Shown here: one piece after another, positions 6,729 through 27,569 of the stretch
Layout of the letters: each line of letters begins with the position of its first letter
Numbering within the stretch: position 1 is the first letter of the stretch
Made by a program: the position numbers and the translations under genes
Virus record (IMG/VR): IMGVR_UViG_3300020121_000062
Coordinates: 1 to 27,569 of that record
Reading direction: 5' to 3' (one strand)
Source: a virus
Length of the DNA stretch: 27,569 nucleotides
The notes under the pieces: generated by a model
What the model was told of the DNA's origin: nothing
The model's input: only the letters and a program-made list of their open reading frames with translations
Database searches by the model: none

Positions 6729-7133
6729 TCAGCCTCCGCGCACCAGGCCGAGCAGGCCACCGCCGGGCGCCCGCGGCTGGAACGGACCGGGCTGCAGTCC
6801 GAGTGTCGCCAACGCCTGCCGGCGCGCCTGCAGTTGCTGCAGCAGTTCTTCAATCGAGGTAAAACCCTCCCCGCGCGTAGCCTGCCCGCCGGCGGCCTGC
6901 AGTGCCTGTTGCTTCTGCTGCTGCGATTCCCCAAGTTTGGTGATGTCCGAAACGTCGGATTTCACCTCCTTGGCGGCTTTGCCAACCTTGTCCCAATTCC
7001 AATTATCGAACCAGCCGCTGTGACCGCCAAATGTCGCCGGATCCGACATATTGGTAAACGAGTCGGTCAGCGCCATTTCATCCGGCGTCGCCGGGGTAAT
7101 CTCAAAATCCCAGCCGTTGTTCGTGCCACTCAT
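6729..7133 (-). CDS. Small unassigned virion-module protein
   Basis: A 134-residue protein that I do not recognise. It has an acidic/aromatic N-terminus (GWDFEITPATPDEMAL, then a WFDNWNWDKVGKAAKEVKSD segment), a glutamine-rich helical middle (QQQKQQALQAAGG, then LLQQLQARRQAL) and a glycine/proline-rich C-terminus. The Trp/Asp cluster followed by an amphipathic helix could be a docking segment. It overlaps the PP-loop gene upstream by ATGA and lies two bases before the SleB-domain protein, so it is made together with the ejection proteins and may be a small internal or chaperone-like partner. That role is inferred from position only. Confidence 0.55.
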   Translation of the reverse strand: MSGTNNGWDFEITPATPDEMALTDSFTNMSDPATFGGHSGWFDNWNWDKVGKAAKEVKSDVSDITKLGESQQQKQQALQAAGGQATRGEGFTSIEELLQQLQARRQALATLGLQPGPFQPRAPGGGLLGLVRGG

Positions 7134-7885
7134 TGGGTTTTCCCCAGCAGACTCGCTAGCCCGCCCATTTCACCCACCTCGCGCGCCAGGTTGTTCATCG
7201 GCGCATGCAGTTCACGCACCACCAATTGCATGCGCGCCCGATAGTCATCGAACAGCGCAGGGTGAAACTGCCGCAGATAGGCCGCGCGTTGCTCGCCCCA
7301 CCAGGCGCTGCACCGGGCGCACTCCGGGGCGTTGGTGACGTGTTCATACACCCGGCAGATCGGCGCCCCGACGGCGCGCAGATAGGCGAACACGTCGGCA
7401 TGCGTCCAATCTTCCAGCGGATACCAGAACTCGATCCCGTCGGGACACTCGCCCGAGCGGAACGGCTGGCGCCGCATATCCACCGCCTTGACGCCGCGGA
7501 TCAGCAGGGTGTTGCCGTCGGCTTTGATGCGCTCGTAGAGCGGCTGCATCAGATTGGCGAAACAGCAATCGTACCGCGCCACCAGTGGGGTGCGTTCCTC
7601 GCCCATGTGGCGCGCCGTCGGATGCGCGCTATGCGGCAGCAGATCGGTCGGCATCCCGTGCGCGGCGATCCAGTCGCTCACATTGCCCTGCACATGCACG
7701 AAATGCGGGTAGAGCCCGCGCACATGCGCGACGATTTCCTGCACCTCGGGCAGTAGATCGCCGGTATCGAGGTGATAGGCGGTGATCCGGTCGGCGTAGT
7801 CGCGCAGCAGATAGGCGCAGGCCAGCGAGTCTTTGCCGCCTGAGAACGACAGCGCGATCTTGCTGTGCCGATCGAACCGGGTCAC
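7130..7885 (-). CDS. PP-loop / PAPS-reductase-fold protein with apparent Fe-S cysteine motif
   Basis: A 251-residue protein of the adenine-nucleotide alpha-hydrolase/PAPS-reductase superfamily. It has SGGKDS (residues 15-20) as PP-loop, LDTGD (about 44-48) and a later IRGVKAVDMRR segment. Cysteines are arranged CC, then 80 residues, then CXXC (YDCC to ECARC), the spacing known for the [4Fe-4S] cluster of assimilatory APS reductases. The C-terminal catalytic Cys motif of those reductases (ECGLH-like) is absent: no cysteine follows CXXC. So an ATP-dependent sulfur-transfer or adenylating reaction, as for DndC/ThiI/TtcA-type PP-loop proteins, is as likely as sulfate reduction. I chose GTG 7885, which overlaps the methyltransferase stop as GTGA with GGAAGG upstream. 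GTG 7903 is an alternative. It is coupled to the next gene by ATGA. Confidence 0.75.
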   Translation of the reverse strand: MTRFDRHSKIALSFSGGKDSLACAYLLRDYADRITAYHLDTGDLLPEVQEIVAHVRGLYPHFVHVQGNVSDWIAAHGMPTDLLPHSAHPTARHMGEERTPLVARYDCCFANLMQPLYERIKADGNTLLIRGVKAVDMRRQPFRSGECPDGIEFWYPLEDWTHADVFAYLRAVGAPICRVYEHVTNAPECARCSAWWGEQRAAYLRQFHPALFDDYRARMQLVVRELHAPMNNLAREVGEMGGLASLLGKTQ

Positions 7886-8547
7886 ACCCGCACCGCCTTC
7901 CACAATACCGGCATCAGATGCGTGAAGATCAAGGCGTATTCCGCGTCGTTGTCATACAGCCGGCGGAACAGCGCATCGTCGCCGTCGGGCGCCAGTAGCC
8001 TTGTCACCTTCCAGCCGCTCGCCGCGGCGAGCGCGTCCATGCGGTCGAACGGAATCGCCTCGGCGAACAGCCGCTGGCGCAGCAGCCGGTTGTCGCCGGA
8101 CAGCCGGGCATAGTCGAACACGAACAGCTCGCCGCCGGGCGCGGTGATGCGCGCCGCCTCGGCCAATGCCCGGTTGATCGGCTCGGCGTGGCACAGTGCA
8201 TACAGCAACATGCAGCCATCCACCGCCGCATCGTCCAGCGGGATCGCGTGCATGTCGGCCTGCAGCTTTTGAAAACCCGACGGTGCCACGGCAAGCTGAA
8301 AGGCGTTGTTGTTGACCAGCACGAAATCCAGATCCGGCCGTCGCGCCTGCATCAGCCGCGCCACTTCGCCGAAGCCGCAGCCGATATCGGCCCACAGCGT
8401 GCCACGTTTCGGCGCCATGAAATCCAGCAGCCGATCGACATGCGTCGCATCGGTCGGCGCCAGCCGATAGCCCTGCAGGATCTTGATGTCTTGGCTCAAG
8501 CCGTAGCGCGAGGCTTCGGTCAGCATGGCTTGGGGAATGGCGCTCAT
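7882..8547 (-). CDS. Class I SAM-dependent methyltransferase
   Basis: A 221-residue Rossmann methyltransferase. Motif I is ADIGCGFGE (residues 53-61). After strand 2 there is FVLVNNNAFQL, where many relatives carry an acidic ribose-binding residue, here asparagine. Motif III is QADMHAIPLDD (about 96-106), followed by a post-motif APGG turn near 136-139. There is no D/N-PP-Y/F motif of N6-adenine or N4-cytosine DNA methylases and no Pro-Cys of C5 methylases, so DNA base methylation is not indicated. The fold resembles small-molecule, lipid or sugar methyltransferases (Methyltransf_11 type). The ATG at 8547 overlaps the upstream virion gene's stop as ATGA, and the 3' end overlaps the PP-loop gene as GTGA. 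This places both enzymes inside the ejection-protein block. Confidence 0.75.
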   Translation of the reverse strand: MSAIPQAMLTEASRYGLSQDIKILQGYRLAPTDATHVDRLLDFMAPKRGTLWADIGCGFGEVARLMQARRPDLDFVLVNNNAFQLAVAPSGFQKLQADMHAIPLDDAAVDGCMLLYALCHAEPINRALAEAARITAPGGELFVFDYARLSGDNRLLRQRLFAEAIPFDRMDALAAASGWKVTRLLAPDGDDALFRRLYDNDAEYALIFTHLMPVLWKAVRV

Positions 8548-9485
8548 ATGATGACCGCCGCCGCCCCGGCGATGCTGGCCGCCGCGCCGACGCCGCCGGC
8601 GATCTGGCCGAACATATTGGACGGCGCGGTTTGCGTGCCGCTGCTGCTGGTGGTGGTGCCGTAGGGCGTGGTGCCGAGCGCCTGTTCCAGCAGTTGCTGC
8701 ATCTGGATCGGATAGTTCCACTGATCCTGCCACTGCGACGCGGCGAGGTCAGAGATCGCTTGCGATTGGCCTTGCTGCGCCCGCCCCGAGGCTTCCAGCA
8801 GACCGGCTTCCTTCGCGGTCTGGTCGCTCGACGTGCTGGCGAGCTGCGGCAGCAGTTGCGTCGCCCATTCACCGCCGGCGAGGTTGGTCTTGCCGAGGTC
8901 CATCGCCCGGCCTTGCGCGGTGTCGTAGCCCTGTTGCAGCAGGCCGCCGACAAGTTGCCCCTCGCCAAGCGCCTCTTGCGACTGCGCGACGCCTTCCTGC
9001 ACACCGAGGCGCGAGCCGCCGAACGCACCGACATTGCTGGCGTTGGCGCGCGTCGCGCCGAGCGATTGATTGAGCGCCTGGCGCATTTGCGTGACGGTCG
9101 GATCGACCACCGCGGTCTGGTAGGGGTTCATTAGGCTGGCGGTGTCGGTGTTGATCTGCCCCGTCGAGATAGGTGCGGCGCTGCCCATCATGCCGGTGGC
9201 GACGTTCTCCGCTGCCTGATAGGCCGGCGCGGTGGCGCCCTGCATGGTGCGGATCGTGTCATACGCCTGGGTTTGATCCGCCGACATCGGCGCGATCGTC
9301 GCGTTCGGATTGGCCTGGTAGGGCCGCGCGGCGATCGATTTTGCGTTCTCGTAGTTGTTCTGCCCGGCCGCATTGACCCAGGCCGGCAGTTGGACCTGCT
9401 GGGTCTGCTGCGTGGTCGAGGGGCTGCCGCCGCCGCGGGCGATCTGGAAGTCCGTCAGATAGGGCGGCCGCCATCCGTAGCTCAT
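8544..9485 (-). CDS. Probable DNA-ejection / internal virion protein
   Basis: A 313-residue alanine/glutamine-rich helical protein. Key pattern near residues 115-165: LMNPYQTAVVDPT, then a helix and ANASNVGAFGGSRLGVQE. This NPY...VVD...GAFGGSR.GV layout is one I recognise from virion proteins of podovirus-like phages located near ejection proteins. The C-terminus is a glycine/alanine-rich hydrophobic segment (about 290-313) that could associate with membrane. The start is ATG 9485 with GAGG five bases upstream, after a seven-base gap. It is coupled to the methyltransferase by ATGA. Analogy with the smallest P22 ejection protein (gp7) is by position and size, not shown by sequence. Confidence 0.6.
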   Translation of the reverse strand: MSYGWRPPYLTDFQIARGGGSPSTTQQTQQVQLPAWVNAAGQNNYENAKSIAARPYQANPNATIAPMSADQTQAYDTIRTMQGATAPAYQAAENVATGMMGSAAPISTGQINTDTASLMNPYQTAVVDPTVTQMRQALNQSLGATRANASNVGAFGGSRLGVQEGVAQSQEALGEGQLVGGLLQQGYDTAQGRAMDLGKTNLAGGEWATQLLPQLASTSSDQTAKEAGLLEASGRAQQGQSQAISDLAASQWQDQWNYPIQMQQLLEQALGTTPYGTTTSSSGTQTAPSNMFGQIAGGVGAAASIAGAAAVII

Positions 9486-19122: not shown

Positions 19123-19411
19123 ATCGCCACTCCATCGCGGGGCGCGCCGCCCAACGGGCGCGCGCGCGGTTTGAGGTCAATGGGGAATTCGCGATGGCGC
19201 GACGCCGGATCGTGGCGCTGCCGCGCTTGGTGCAAGCACTGCGCGGTCCGCATGACGAGGCGGGAAGTCGGGTCCGATCAGCGACGGCACGGCCGCGCCG
19301 TTGCTTGGTCCGTTGGACTGCCCCCGGCGACTACAGCGGGCGTTGCTTGGTCGCCGAAGCGACTGCCATGTCCCGCCGATCAGTCATCCAGAAGCCGAAA
19401 ACAGAGTCGCG
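19123..19411 (-). promoter_or_regulatory. Capsid-gene leader, longest gap in the late operon
   Basis: No gene of credible codon use lies in these 289 bases. Contents: the capsid Shine-Dalgarno (GGAG near 19130-19134), a GC hairpin at 19142-19165, and a 12-bp direct repeat, cgttgcttggtc on the plus strand, at 19299-19310 and 19341-19352. I see no convincing sigma70 promoter pair. Likely a separate control region for capsid expression, by position. Confidence 0.5.
19142..19165 (-). other. Strong GC hairpin upstream of capsid start
   Basis: GCGCGC (19142-19147) pairs with GCGCGC (19160-19165), and GCCC (19149-19152) with GGGC (19156-19159), around an AAC loop, with one bulged C at 19148. That makes ten base pairs. 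There is no U-run after it in the mRNA, so it is an RNA structure or attenuator rather than a classical intrinsic terminator. Confidence 0.5.
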
Positions 19412-20881: not shown

Positions 20882-23599
20882 TTAGCGGCCCGACGGCATC
20901 GGCCCCGCCGGCGGGAGCATGGCGCGATTGGCCAGCGTCGCCCCGGCGAGGTTGCTGCCGCCTTGGGTCAGCGCCCGGCGCATCGCCAGGATGCTCGCCG
21001 CATCCGGCGGCGGGCGCGGCCCGGCACCACCGGCCGGGCCGGCACCACCCCCCACCGGCGGCACTGGCGCGGTTACCGGAACGCCAGGCGGCCGCGCGGT
21101 GGGGATAGCCCGTCCGGGTACGCCCCCGGACGGTACGCCGAGCGCCGGCGGCGGAGGTGCAGCCATCGGCGGCGGCGGTGCGGCAGTCTCGGCTGGTGGC
21201 GGCACGAACAACGCCTGCAGCGGGATCTGGCTGCGGAGCGCCGCCTTGAATTCAGCAATGTCAGGCAGCGGCGTCTGATTGACCGCCGCGGTGGCGTAGG
21301 CGTTCACCCAGGCGGTGACCGCCGCCTCGGCGCGGCTGCGATCGTCCTCAAACGCCAGTTTCAGCCGATCGGTCTGCGCCTGGCGCTGATCGTCCACGAT
21401 CGACGCGGCCAGCTTGTTCTGCTCGACCTGGGCCAGCACCTGATCGGTGCTCGGTTGCGGCGGCGGCGGTGGTGGCGGCTGCCAGTTCGGCGGCAGCTCC
21501 TTGAAATACGTCACCACGTCGGAAATCCCCGCGGTTTCCGCCATCCGCGCCAAGGTGGCGCGGTAGTTCGGCAGCCCGACGATCGGCGTATCCAGCATGC
21601 CCTGCTGAATCGCCGGTGCCAGGATCTGTTCTTGCTTGGCGGCGATCGCGCTCAACATCGCCAGCCGCTCGGCCGGCGTGCCTTTGCCGCCGATGTTCAC
21701 TTGCACATCCCACTGCGCCGACAGTGCGCGCGGATCGACCGGCACCCATTTGCCGCGGATCGACAGCACGTTCGGCCGGTCCTGGTGCTTCGCCATCAGC
21801 CGCAGCAGCCCGAGATAGAGCGGCGCCAGGCCGGTTTCCGCCAAGGTGCGGGCGATCATGTCCAGCCGGTCTTGTGCGGCGCCGGTTTGCGCATCCACGG
21901 CGAGCGGCGTGGTGGATTGCAGGCTTTCCGCGGTCAGCCCCTGCGAGGTGCGCGTGATCCCAGTGCGGCCTTCGCGGATCGCGTCGAGCTGTTGCATCAC
22001 GATCAGCGCCTTGTCGCCGACGAACGGCTTGGCGAGCTCTTGCACGGCGCCCTGTTGCGTCACCCGGATGATCGAGCCGATCGCGGTTTGCCTGACATCC
22101 TCGACATAGGTCTGCCCGACGGTGACCACGGTGCGCGGATAGAGCGACTGGCCGAGCGCATCGAGCACACCGCGCATGACGCGGGTTTGCGTGCGCTGCA
22201 GATCCATCACCATGTCGGCCTGCGACATGCCGATCACCCGCCCCGGCTCGCGATACGGCGTCATCGCCGACAGCGGGATTTCGTCGGTGCGATCCCAGCG
22301 GCACAGTTTGGGCGAACTGCCGAGCGCGTGGGTGTGGATCAGCTCGGCGACGTGATCGCCGTCGGTGTCGAGCTTGATCCAGCCTTCGACATAGCGCACC
22401 AGCGCCATCGCGCGGTTTTGCCCCGGCTGCGCCACCCGCCAGGCATTGCCGCTGGCCGGATCGCGCGCCACCGCCTCGCGCCGCAGCCGCGGCGAGATTG
22501 ATTCCACCGTTGCCGCCCGCATCACCTCATCCTCGGGCAGTCCGGCGGCGATGAGGTCGGAAGCGGGGAGGTCCCGGACGTGAAACACCGCCCGCGCGGT
22601 GTCCACCTGATCGGCGTCGGCGACGATCCACACGCTGGCCGGATCGACACTTTCGACGATCGGCCAACTGCGCGCCGAGGTGCGCGTGATGCGGGCGCCG
22701 AACAGCACCGGCGGGCCGCCGGCCTGGAAATACGCCGCGCCTTCCGGCGTAGCAGCGAAGGCGCGTTGCTCGGACGGCAGCATCGGCCGCTTGACGATGC
22801 GTTGCGCGATGATGCCTGGCTCTTGCAGCAGCGCGGAAAGCTGCGGCGCCAGCAAACGATCGCAATCCTCAACGCGCTGCGCCCGCCGTTCGCCCCATCG
22901 CCAGCGTATCCAGCCGACTTTGCGCGTCAGCGCGTTCAGGATCGCATCATGCAGCACCAGCCACCCTCGATTGGCGGTGAACAGTGCCCAATTCGCGTAA
23001 CTCGTGGCCTGCCGGGCGAGTTCGGCGTGCAACTCGCCGAGTTGTTCGTTGTCGCTCACGGTGGGGATGAATTCAACGGGATGCTCGACCGCGGTAAACA
23101 CCCGGATCAGGCTCGGCAGGGTCGCCCGGATGGTGTCGCGCACCACGGTCATCACCAGTTGCGAGCGTCCGGGTTCCTCGCCGCCGATCTTTTCCCCGCG
23201 ATAGTAGGCCGACGCGGCGATCCGGTCGGCCGACAGCCGCGCGTCATAGCTTTGCGCCGCCTCGAAATACGTCATCATCGATGCCTGCACGTCGGCATCG
23301 GTGACCGCCAGACGGTCAAAGATGATTTCTTGCTGCCACGGCACGCCGGCCGGGGCGATGAACGGCTGCAGCCCGGCTTGGTAGTCCTGCAGCTCATCGG
23401 GCAGTGCGTCGAACGCATCCGGCAATGCCACGCGCGCCGCCGAGGCGGTGCTCAGGGTCAGTTTGCCGGCCATCATCATCTGCTGCGGCTCGCGATACGC
23501 CGGTGGCGGCGCCAGCGTGTGCAGATCGAGTGAACCGGGCGACAACAGCCCCTGCGGTGCCGGCTGTGCGAGTGGTGGCACGAAGGCGGTACCGCTCAT
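20882..23599 (-). CDS. Portal protein (P22-type, podovirus)
   Basis: A 905-residue portal. Around residues 105-235 it shows the pattern ASAYYRGEKIGGEEPGRSQLVMTVVRDTIRATLPSLIRVFT, later TSYANWALFTANRGWLVLHDAILNALTRKVGWIRWRW. I recognise this 'YYRGE....GRSQ.V...V.D.I...LPSL.R.F' layout as that of large podovirus portals. The middle holds a domain with DLQRTQTRVMRGVLDALGQSLYP. The C-terminal 200 residues are Pro-rich (PPPPPPP near 755) with a charged helix. It forms the dodecameric DNA channel and motor dock for the terminase. Start ATG 23599 has GGAAGGA about ten bases upstream. Confidence 0.8.
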   Translation of the reverse strand: MSGTAFVPPLAQPAPQGLLSPGSLDLHTLAPPPAYREPQQMMMAGKLTLSTASAARVALPDAFDALPDELQDYQAGLQPFIAPAGVPWQQEIIFDRLAVTDADVQASMMTYFEAAQSYDARLSADRIAASAYYRGEKIGGEEPGRSQLVMTVVRDTIRATLPSLIRVFTAVEHPVEFIPTVSDNEQLGELHAELARQATSYANWALFTANRGWLVLHDAILNALTRKVGWIRWRWGERRAQRVEDCDRLLAPQLSALLQEPGIIAQRIVKRPMLPSEQRAFAATPEGAAYFQAGGPPVLFGARITRTSARSWPIVESVDPASVWIVADADQVDTARAVFHVRDLPASDLIAAGLPEDEVMRAATVESISPRLRREAVARDPASGNAWRVAQPGQNRAMALVRYVEGWIKLDTDGDHVAELIHTHALGSSPKLCRWDRTDEIPLSAMTPYREPGRVIGMSQADMVMDLQRTQTRVMRGVLDALGQSLYPRTVVTVGQTYVEDVRQTAIGSIIRVTQQGAVQELAKPFVGDKALIVMQQLDAIREGRTGITRTSQGLTAESLQSTTPLAVDAQTGAAQDRLDMIARTLAETGLAPLYLGLLRLMAKHQDRPNVLSIRGKWVPVDPRALSAQWDVQVNIGGKGTPAERLAMLSAIAAKQEQILAPAIQQGMLDTPIVGLPNYRATLARMAETAGISDVVTYFKELPPNWQPPPPPPPQPSTDQVLAQVEQNKLAASIVDDQRQAQTDRLKLAFEDDRSRAEAAVTAWVNAYATAAVNQTPLPDIAEFKAALRSQIPLQALFVPPPAETAAPPPPMAAPPPPALGVPSGGVPGRAIPTARPPGVPVTAPVPPVGGGAGPAGGAGPRPPPDAASILAMRRALTQGGSNLAGATLANRAMLPPAGPMPSGR

Positions 23600-25205: not shown

Positions 25206-26645
25206 TTATTCCATCCCCCCGATCACACGCCGGATCGGGGTTTTCGCGTGCAGCATCGGGCCAAGCGACAACGCCATGCCGGCCGGCGCGAAGGTCAGGC
25301 AGAGCGCGTCACCACTGTCCGGCGAGGCGACGCCGCGACTGCGCAACTGCGCCTTGCTTTCCACCTGTAGCCGGCCGTCCGACATGAAGGTGGCGCGCGG
25401 CGAGGTCAGATCCTGCCGCAGCTTGTCATCGCGCGGCAGGGTCACCTGGCGCGATTCCAGCCACTCGCGCACCTGATACCAAAGCTGATCGCGCATCCGC
25501 ACAAAGCGGCCGGTGACGCTCGGCACCTCGCCGACATTGAGCCCGAGGATCGGCAATTCCTGTTCGGCCAGGCGGTCCACCACGCCGGCGCCGATGCCGA
25601 TGACATCGATGACGATCAACGCGGGGCGCGCGGTGTGCGGCAGTGAGTCGTATTCCGCCTTGATGACCCCGGCCAGCGCCATGGTATCCAGCCCCGACCA
25701 GCGCCGCGGCATGTCGGTGACGCGCGTGCCGCGACGCTTGATGAGAACGCTTTCGGCGCTGCCGAAGCGCGCCACGTCAACCCCCCAGATTTCCGCCGCA
25801 CCCAGATCGAGCGCGATGTCGCGCAGCATCGCGCCATCGACCAGATCGGCCGGGATCAGCGTATCGGCATCGGCGAGCGGAAATTCACCGAGAACTCTGA
25901 CCCGGTAGCTGTTGGAATCCTCGCCGTAGCGATTGGCGATTTCGTCAACGAAGTCCCGCGACACCCGCGGGCTGTCCAGGCACGACACCCGCAAGGTGAA
26001 CCAGCGGTCGCGTTCCAGGTTATGCACCCGCCAGAAAAACCCGGTCGCCCTTGTTGGGTTTCCGCAACACAGCGTCACCGCACCCGGCGTGCTCATCGAG
26101 CCGCCCGCCGCCTCGAAGGTTTCATCGCTGACGCCCGAGGCTTCATCGATCACCAGCATGACATTCGGCGAGTGGATGCCCTGCAGCGATTCGGGATTGT
26201 CGGCGCGCGAGGTGCGGGCGGTGACGAAGCAATCATCCGGCGAGCTTTTGAGTTTGATGCGGTCGCTATCCACGTCGAACAGATCGGCCCAGGCTGGCGG
26301 CAGCAACCTAAACGTCGCGCGCACGTCGCCCATCAGCGCGTCGTGCAATTGCGGCGCCGATGGCGCGGTCACGCCGACCTTGAACGGCGCGCGTGTGCAG
26401 CAGAACCAGCAGATGCTGCTGGCCAGCCACACCCCTTTGCCAACGCCATGACCCGAACGCACCGCGATGCGCCGGTGGCCGTGCGCCAGCGCGCGATTGG
26501 CCTGTTGCTGCCATGGATCGGTCGTGCGGCCCAACACCTCGCGCCAAAACGCATTCGGCTGGCGGCTGTAGTGATCGACGCAGATCGACCAGGGATCGCC
26601 GCTATCGGCGATGAGCTGTGCAACGGGGGTGTAGCCGTCAGGCAT
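25206..26645 (-). CDS. Terminase large subunit
   Basis: A 479-residue packaging motor. The ATPase half has Walker A SGHGVGKG (64-71), Walker B VMLVIDEAS (162-170, Asp167/Glu168) and a CCGNPTRATGFF coupling segment (about 193-204). The nuclease half has VDVARFG with Asp290, VIDVIG with Asp347 and SPDSGDAL with Asp443/Asp446. These are the acidic residues expected for an RNase H-like nuclease that cuts concatemers and translocates DNA through the portal. It starts at ATG 26645, nine bases after the previous stop. No obvious small terminase is identifiable from sequence in the window. Confidence 0.9.
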   Translation of the reverse strand: MPDGYTPVAQLIADSGDPWSICVDHYSRQPNAFWREVLGRTTDPWQQQANRALAHGHRRIAVRSGHGVGKGVWLASSICWFCCTRAPFKVGVTAPSAPQLHDALMGDVRATFRLLPPAWADLFDVDSDRIKLKSSPDDCFVTARTSRADNPESLQGIHSPNVMLVIDEASGVSDETFEAAGGSMSTPGAVTLCCGNPTRATGFFWRVHNLERDRWFTLRVSCLDSPRVSRDFVDEIANRYGEDSNSYRVRVLGEFPLADADTLIPADLVDGAMLRDIALDLGAAEIWGVDVARFGSAESVLIKRRGTRVTDMPRRWSGLDTMALAGVIKAEYDSLPHTARPALIVIDVIGIGAGVVDRLAEQELPILGLNVGEVPSVTGRFVRMRDQLWYQVREWLESRQVTLPRDDKLRQDLTSPRATFMSDGRLQVESKAQLRSRGVASPDSGDALCLTFAPAGMALSLGPMLHAKTPIRRVIGGME

Positions 26646-26654
26646 CGGTGCCCG

Positions 26655-26837
26655 TCATGGCCCGCGCCAGAAGCCACCGCCGCCCAGTCCGCCGAACAAC
26701 ACCAGGACCAGCAGGATGACCAGGACCAGGCCGATGACGCCGACGCCGCCCGAGCCGTAATAGCCGCCCCGGTAGCCGTACCACCCGCCACCGCCGAACA
26801 GCAGCAGGATCACGAGGATCAGGAGGATGAGGGTCAT
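26655..26837 (-). CDS. DUF3309-like membrane protein
   Basis: A 60-residue protein with two hydrophobic spans (about 2-14 and 33-49) joined by a Gly/Tyr-rich loop (GGGGWYGYRGGYYGSGGVG). It fits the short DUF3309 family of proteobacterial membrane proteins, which have 'LILLIxLxLL...G....GYGPSGG.G....LVLIILLVLLL..G' form. The function of that family is unknown. ATG 26837 follows the previous stop by one base. In-frame codons upstream to 27035 run over the zinc-ribbon gene and are not needed. Confidence 0.6.
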   Translation of the reverse strand: MTLILLILVILLLFGGGGWYGYRGGYYGSGGVGVIGLVLVILLVLVLFGGLGGGGFWRGP

Positions 26838-26838
26838 G

Positions 26839-27087
26839 CTACCATCGCTGCATGCCGGCGCCGATCCGCGCCCGTCCTGCGTCCGTGACTTCCCCGCGCA
26901 ACGCGCCTCGATGGCGCCCGCAGGAGCGCGTATGCCCGCTGTTGAGGTCACTCGCCGCCACCACGGCATCGACGCCGCAATCACAGCGACAGCGCCAGCG
27001 GATGCGCGCAGTGCGGCGCGGGCGTTCTGGCTCAAGCGCCACCAGCCGGCCGAAGCGTCGCCCGGTCAGGTCAACCCGCACCGGCAT
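26839..27087 (-). CDS. Small Cys-cluster (zinc-ribbon-like) phage protein
   Basis: An 82-residue protein: VDLTGRRFGRLVALEPE, then IRWRCRCDCGVDAVVAASDL, then SGHTRSCG. Cysteines at about 33, 35, 37 and 56, with the 'DLTG..FG.L.....W.C.CDCG.....L.SG...SCG' layout, match small zinc-binding proteins often found in phages and near HNH/AP2-type proteins. DNA binding or a structural role is inferred. I use ATG 27087, which overlaps the GcrA-like stop as TGATG. The GTG codon just before it would give a GTGA overlap and one more residue. Confidence 0.6.
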   Translation of the reverse strand: MPVRVDLTGRRFGRLVALEPERPRRTARIRWRCRCDCGVDAVVAASDLNSGHTRSCGRHRGALRGEVTDAGRARIGAGMQRW

Positions 27088-27569
27088 CACGCCGCGGCCT
27101 TGCCGTAGCAGCGACGGCTACACTCGGCACAATAGGGGCCGAGGGCCATGCTGCCCGCCCGACTTGGCACGCGCGGCGCATCGCACACCCGCCAGGGCCG
27201 CATCGACAGCGGAAACTGGCAGCCGGTGCCGGGAATATCGACCACCTGTACCGCCGGCAGCGCCACCGGCGCCACCGCCCGCTTGCGCGTGGCGTCGGAT
27301 TTCCAGCGGAAAGACGGCGGCGGCCCCGACGCCGCGCGCTCGGTGGCTCCGAGGTTCGCGCGCGGCTTCGGTGCGGGGCGCGCCGCCCCCGCGGCAACGG
27401 GGCGGCGCCGCGAGCTGGTGGTGACGGGTTTCGCCTTGGCGGTCTTGATCGGGTTTTCTCGCGGCGGCAGCGCCAGCCGGCGCGCCAGGCCGATGATGAC
27501 GCATTTGCTCACGCCGAGGCGTTCGCCGATCTTGCTGGTGCTCAGTCCTTCGCCCCACAGGACTTCCAC
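27087..27569 (-). CDS. gcrA-like: GcrA-family cell-cycle regulator-like protein, 5' end missing
   Basis: 160 residues visible, continuing past the right edge. The N-terminal part is a GcrA helix-turn-helix: LWGEGLSTSKIGERLGVSKCVIIGLARRLAL. This is the 'LW.EGLS.S.IA..LG...N.VIG..HRL.L' motif. A long basic Pro/Ala linker follows. The C-terminal region resembles the sigma70-binding domain: GCQFPL, VCDAP and PYCAECSRRCYG, similar to 'C.WPIGDP..F.FCG.P...YC..H...AY'. GcrA of alphaproteobacteria binds sigma70 and activates promoters with methylated GANTC sites. A phage copy could redirect host transcription. The first residue in the window is not a start codon I trust (a GTG at the edge, likely internal valine). 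Confidence 0.75.
   Translation of the reverse strand: MEVLWGEGLSTSKIGERLGVSKCVIIGLARRLALPPRENPIKTAKAKPVTTSSRRRPVAAGAARPAPKPRANLGATERAASGPPPSFRWKSDATRKRAVAPVALPAVQVVDIPGTGCQFPLSMRPWRVCDAPRVPSRAGSMALGPYCAECSRRCYGKAAA

Follow-up and report, generated by a model that had tools for sequence, protein, structure and literature searches.

In bacteria, the protein GcrA assists RNA polymerase in starting certain genes. A gene for a GcrA-like protein was found at the right end of a viral DNA stretch of 27,569 bases (IMG/VR record IMGVR_UViG_3300020121_000062; G+C content of 66%), called the window throughout the text, near the gene for the large terminase subunit. What would a phage use such a protein for at this place?

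Extent, domains and divergence of the GcrA-like protein

The open reading frame scan of the record showed that the right end of the window cuts an open frame on the minus strand (27087–27569), of which 160 residues are in view and the 5′ end lies outside. The GTG at 27569–27567 is merely the first visible codon. As the first residue in view pairs with residue 11 of Caulobacter crescentus GcrA in the structural alignment, at least about 10 N-terminal residues are located outside the window. A search of IMG/VR with the last 30 window bases yielded no contig bridging the right end. The GC content at the three codon positions (0.68/0.65/0.84) fits a coding frame. Using the Pfam profile PF07750 (GcrA, curated cut-off of 26.9 bits) the protein was found with 40.9 bits (E 3.6e-10) over profile positions 14–147 of 155, and a six-frame Pfam search of the window identified the GcrA family again with 38.9 bits. 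Furthermore, it matched phrog_16311 (E 1.9e-8), a phage family without a functional label. The GcrA-like identity proposed by the initial annotation was borne out by these three matches. With the NCBIfam model NF050816 for the cell-cycle sigma70 cofactor GcrA, however, 26.9 bits were obtained, a tenth of the equivalog cut-off of 280. Judged from these profiles, the window protein is a distant member of the GcrA family and not the cell-cycle orthologue. Among the control genomes, a PF07750 match above the cut-off was also observed in the archaeon Sulfolobus acidocaldarius, an unexpected host for a family of alphaproteobacteria.

Both GcrA domains were recognizable in the translated frame. Like GcrA of C. 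crescentus and other alphaproteobacteria, the window protein combines a helix-turn-helix, a long linker and a C-terminal cysteine-rich domain of the sigma-interacting (SID) type. The AlphaFold2 model, built from an 8-row alignment, was of modest overall quality (mean pLDDT 62.5, pTM 0.29). The helix-turn-helix DNA-binding domain (27465–27569, minus strand), of which the first ~10 residues are missing, was modelled with a pLDDT of about 90 (86–92 for residues 1–30). The linker (27228–27464, minus strand) is mostly disordered, with pLDDT values below 50 for residues 43–113. The SID-type domain (27099–27227, minus strand) shows a C-C-C-C pattern and was placed by alignment to ten alphaproteobacterial GcrAs and by the PF07750 match up to position 147 of 155; it was modelled as a small domain of strands and a helix, with a pLDDT of ~80 near the end. 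Using VIA-align, the helix-turn-helix superimposed on 5yiv_A, the GcrA DNA-binding domain with methylated DNA, with 0.7 Å over 34 residues (44% identity, Z 4.0); unrelated helix-turn-helix chains came within Z 1 of this score. For 7ye1_G, GcrA in an RNA polymerase complex, 78 residues across both halves were aligned (Z 3.6), with an rmsd of 17 Å because the halves are turned relative to each other. A Foldseek search of the model against solved structures found nothing at E ≤ 0.001.

The host reference consisted of ten GcrA-family sequences whose genomes carry an alphaproteobacterial label, two of them divergent copies (L192, L196), and columns with the same residue in at least 80% of the ten were taken as conserved. 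Of such columns, the window protein shares 5 of 12 within the recognition helix and 6 of 15 within the SID. In the helix N, K and H, present in 8–10 of the ten host GcrAs, were found replaced by C, L and R. In the SID the host-invariant W of the C-x-W-P motif was changed to F, the loop before the second cysteine was shorter and the loop before the third one longer than in host GcrA. The fourth cluster position is C in place of the host H (C-C-C-H), so that a metal-site pattern would survive; the SID-type domain may bind metal. Three related phage proteins described below (L178, L004, L016) kept N and H of the recognition helix, lacked K and carried F or Y for W. Consequently, part of the drift is common to the whole clade.

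GcrA homologues of phages have been in print since 2012, namely phiCbK gp222 and those of CcrMagneto, Swift, Karma and Rogue (PMC3556154, available part of the text). Therefore, the window protein is a diverged version and not the first phage GcrA. The phiCbK group shares with the window a phage-encoded GcrA-family protein; it differs in belonging to large Caulobacter phages of 205–280 kb, and the available part of that text gives no position in a packaging operon. The window protein is far from host GcrA, unlike the GcrA-family protein gp5 of Agrobacterium phage Atu_ph08, which is 89.74% identical to a host protein (PMC6630229). Two GcrA-family genes, ORF4 and ORF5, are found in Brucella phage Y17 (PMC11836647), and S. 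meliloti phiLM21-like prophages also carry GcrA (PMC12429752); in the accessible parts of these three reports, which concern other hosts, GcrA appears as an annotation only. A coral-associated Rhizobiales phage is described in the accessible text with gcrA and cysH together (PMC11309003), and we found annotated cyanophages with GcrA-family genes, including Synechococcus phage Yong-M4-211. In a literature search based on listings and excerpts, with few subscription papers covered, neither GcrA beside terL nor GcrA with added cysteine clusters was the subject of any paper.

Gene order in the window and in related phages

The GTG start of an 83-aa ORF with an HNH-endonuclease-type DNA-binding match (26839–27090, minus strand; phrog_374, E 2.1e-15, profile 190–255 of 617) overlaps the stop of the gcrA-like gene (GTGA, 27087–27090). 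The gene for the terminase large subunit TerL follows at 25206–26645 on the minus strand (phrog_5902, E 6.9e-45; phrog_2, E 1.1e-39). Further downstream the SU10-type portal protein (20882–23599, minus strand; PF23899 SU10_portal, E 1e-142; phrog_1216) and then scaffold and major head protein are encoded. The gene had originally been placed next to the terminase. This was nearly right, as it lies on the same strand and near TerL, but 441 bases and the HNH-type ORF separate the two. No integrase was detected in the subset of window frames scanned. A weak XRE-type regulator ORF was observed at 62–454 (HTH_3 E 0.0022, under the cut-off; phrog_8 E 0.0009), beside a noncoding stretch of 336 bases (455–790). 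In the tail region a PAPS-reductase-type gene (7130–7903; PF01507, E 1.1e-11) and a gene for a class I methyltransferase (7882–8580) overlap; a similar methyltransferase ORF is carried at a different place by the relative G090. The combination of cysH and gcrA also occurs in the coral-associated phage mentioned above.

Relatives were sought first via TerL, which gave ten IMG/VR contigs, and then by an alignment search giving 80 loci, one of them not new. When 44 TerL rows were placed in a maximum-likelihood tree, the window formed one clade with L002, L003, L004, L016, L017 and L178 (support 100/99). In all six clade contigs with readable upstream DNA, window included, a GcrA-like gene precedes terL in the same orientation; the contig of L002, with a 99% identical TerL, ends before the gcrA position. 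As the TerL proteins of L017 and L178 are identical, five independent cases are counted. The distance to terL ranged from 3 to 1,135 bases in the five relatives. The gap of 3–9 bases in L016, L017 and L178 makes co-transcription with terL likely in these phages. The gap amounts to ~190 bases in L003, and in L004 it holds a weakly HNH-like ORF that also gave several helix-turn-helix matches. The interval (window 26646–27086; L004 6836–8008) is thus variable, with HNH-type ORFs in two phages and none in three others, and is likely an insertion spot for HNH elements.

The SID-type cysteine core was kept in six of six clade members showing that region. PF07750 was matched above the cut-off by L178 and L016 and below it by L004 (19.4 bits), and the L178, L004, L016 and L018 proteins also matched phrog_16311. 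In L018, on the next branch, a helix-turn-helix is present, but no clear SID. Other parts of the TerL tree yielded an ordinary GcrA in L021, and ORFs with the helix-turn-helix only at the same place in L032, L033 and L036. Hence, a gene at this place can do without the SID. In L178, L004 and L016 an ORF of 221–222 aa is followed by gcrA and then terL. This ORF had no PHROG match and no family was found for it; by position only, it is a candidate for the small terminase subunit. Inspection by eye revealed cysteine clusters before the helix-turn-helix, one in L178 and L004, two in L018 and three in L016. Those of L016 matched phrog_1271, an HNH-endonuclease family (E 7.2e-9), and gave a faint match to DUF2116 ("probable treble clef"). 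As copies of the SID they were rejected, the SID part of the profile being touched at E 0.17 to 2.9, which is no evidence.

G090, the record of L178, is bounded by a direct repeat of 127 bases and encodes an integrase (phrog_1, E 9.2e-37); it therefore reads as a complete temperate phage. The contigs of the window (at its right end), L002, L003 and L017 all stop inside gcrA or directly behind it. Local diversity may interrupt the assembly there, or a genome end is nearby. In the TerL relative phiM5, a terminal repeat of 357 bp lies immediately before terL. Upstream of the small-subunit-like ORF, an inverted repeat of 28–29 bp made of TGTNNACA-like units was observed in L178 (3693–3793), L004 (5150–5250) and L016 (1571–1694); in L016 the build is the same, but the letters differ and the spacer is longer, suggestive of a joint change of protein and site. 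It could be an operator or a packaging site, and was found neither in the window nor in L018.

The window GcrA had no tblastn match at E 1e-3 among 50,697 INPHARED phage records and no relative in an IMG/VR pattern scan, an IMG/VR scan with the L016 protein returned L016 itself only, and the L004 and L016 proteins had no match in the phage records; the ordinary GcrA of L021 had 3. At E 1e-3, PF07750 was matched in 1 of 10, 9 of 49, 0 of 30 and 1 of 3 TerL relatives of successive sets and in none of 3 annotated phage records related by TerL. Two of the nine were taken as chance, L174, located in a frame of 690 aa, and L175, which contains a stop and is on the other strand. A profile of the phage GcrA-like proteins gave 7 matches over 31 records, and a local profile over 104 of the loci gave 11 frames, 10 of them on the same strand upstream of terL. 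The eleventh (L020, E 0.007, other strand) was dropped. L029, with a weak PF07750 match (19.9 bits) missed by the local profile, was scored as "none" in the TerL tree. L179 and L180, found by GcrA alignment, were dropped as well, since their GcrA-like stretch lies only within a 1,595-aa protein without a PF07750 match.

Selection and GANTC sites

For the window and L003 a dN/dS of 0.19 was calculated over 56 shared codons, and likewise 0.19 for terL. For the gcrA-like genes of L178 and L004 the value was 0.53 over 220 codons, with a synonymous difference lower than in their terL, which hints at exchange. At the codon level purifying selection on the gcrA-like gene is visible. The gene is best described as real, diverged and maintained by phages.

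The initial annotation had suggested control through methylated GANTC promoters. GANTC occurs 41 times in the window compared to 97.8 ± 9.9 in dinucleotide shuffles. In codon-preserving shuffles of a gene set chosen by eye from the ORF list, 39 observed sites stood against 51.4 ± 5.5 (0.76 of expectation; 2 of 300 shuffles as low), and CTNAG was rarer still (0.46 of the codon-preserving expectation). As the deficit shrinks to 0.76 and CTNAG reaches 0.46, neither enrichment nor a clear host signature is indicated. The sole GANTC touching noncoding DNA (19404–19408) lies between the capsid and scaffold genes, one site in 1,266 noncoding bases, where the mean density (41 in 27,569) would predict ~1.9. 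L178 carries two GANTC sites 22 bases apart, 57 and 79 bases before the gcrA start, in a gap of 169 bases; the gaps before gcrA in L004, L016 and L018 hold none. In view of the lack of enrichment, the single noncoding site and the exchange of the recognition-helix N, K and H for C, L and R, promoter use of methylated GANTC is not supported. The DNA target is probably no longer methylated GANTC, or is only loosely tied to it. In the available parts of the respective papers, host GcrA is required by a prophage operon of B. subvibrioides (PMC7987155), and predicted GcrA sites were not unevenly placed in a survey of alphaproteobacterial phages (PMC9437464).

Possible roles of the phage protein

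Our tentative reading, to which we give somewhat less than an even chance, is a GcrA-derived sigma cofactor made together with the packaging genes and boosting late transcription of the phage. The initially proposed steering of transcription to late phage promoters is plausible in view of the two domains, the purifying selection and the position by the packaging genes. The protein would be produced along with the packaging proteins, its SID-type domain would grip region 2 of the host sigma70 as in GcrA, and the helix-turn-helix would recruit or stabilize RNA polymerase at phage late promoters, perhaps aided by the extra N-terminal cysteine clusters of the full-length relatives. Precedent for the mechanism comes from GcrA itself, in which, according to the available part of the text, the DNA-binding domain (residues 1–45) reads methylated DNA and the SID (108–173) binds sigma2 (PMC7403470). 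No target promoter emerged from the GANTC counts. Against a sigma cofactor speak the F for W in the SID, the 6 of 15 SID and 5 of 12 helix columns, the lack of GANTC enrichment, the NF050816 score far below its cut-off, the lack of a Foldseek match and the absence of the SID in L018, L032, L033 and L036. A more detailed scenario appears doubtful to us: a temperate lineage would have made the host sigma cofactor its own late activator by keeping the SID, re-aiming the helix away from methylated GANTC, adding one to three N-terminal cysteine-cluster modules and placing the gene in the packaging operon between the small-subunit-like ORF and terL. For comparison, late activators of the ArpU/RinA type are located beside terminase genes, and phage P2 has the zinc-finger late activator Ogr.

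The direct position upstream of terL, at 3–9 bases in L016, L017 and L178, would also suit a packaging accessory, i.e., a DNA-binding partner of the terminase or a part of the small-subunit work, with the SID-type domain binding a partner other than sigma. L032, L033 and L036, with a helix-turn-helix alone at this position, and L018, with its SID lost, point in this direction, and the small-subunit-like ORF without PHROG match gives no proof of a small subunit elsewhere. We consider this unlikely, since the cysteine core was kept in all six clade members showing it, L021 encodes a separate DUF5681 ORF (PF18932, E 2.2e-7) between its ordinary GcrA and terL, and the accounts of phiCbK and Atu_ph08, in their available parts, give no description as a packaging protein (PMC3556154, PMC6630229). 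The window protein itself matched phrog_16311 and PF07750 only and no TerS family.

A captured regulator driving methylated host promoters, such as those of replication genes, during infection has been put forward for phiCbK gp222 (PMC3556154) and Atu_ph08 (PMC6630229), as far as the available texts go. For the window protein such a take-over of the host is distinctly improbable, as the position among packaging genes suggests late expression, the recognition-helix N, K and H are replaced and the equivalog score is 26.9 against 280. A purely repressing or autoregulatory role at the packaging operon finds some basis in the GANTC pair of L178; with the same gap free of GANTC in L004, L016 and L018, we regard it as very unlikely. 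That the frame arose by chance or is decaying, as its 5′ end beyond the window might allow, is hardly credible given the PF07750 match (E 3.6e-10), the dN/dS of 0.19 with L003 and the homologues throughout the clade, for which this explanation is already contradicted.

If the protein is a mere copy of host GcrA, it would be a further example of what was reported in 2012. If it is a late activator, it would represent a phage transcription switch based on gripping sigma region 2, the two activities of GcrA, reading of DNA and holding of sigma, could be studied separately, and phrog_16311 would gain a function.
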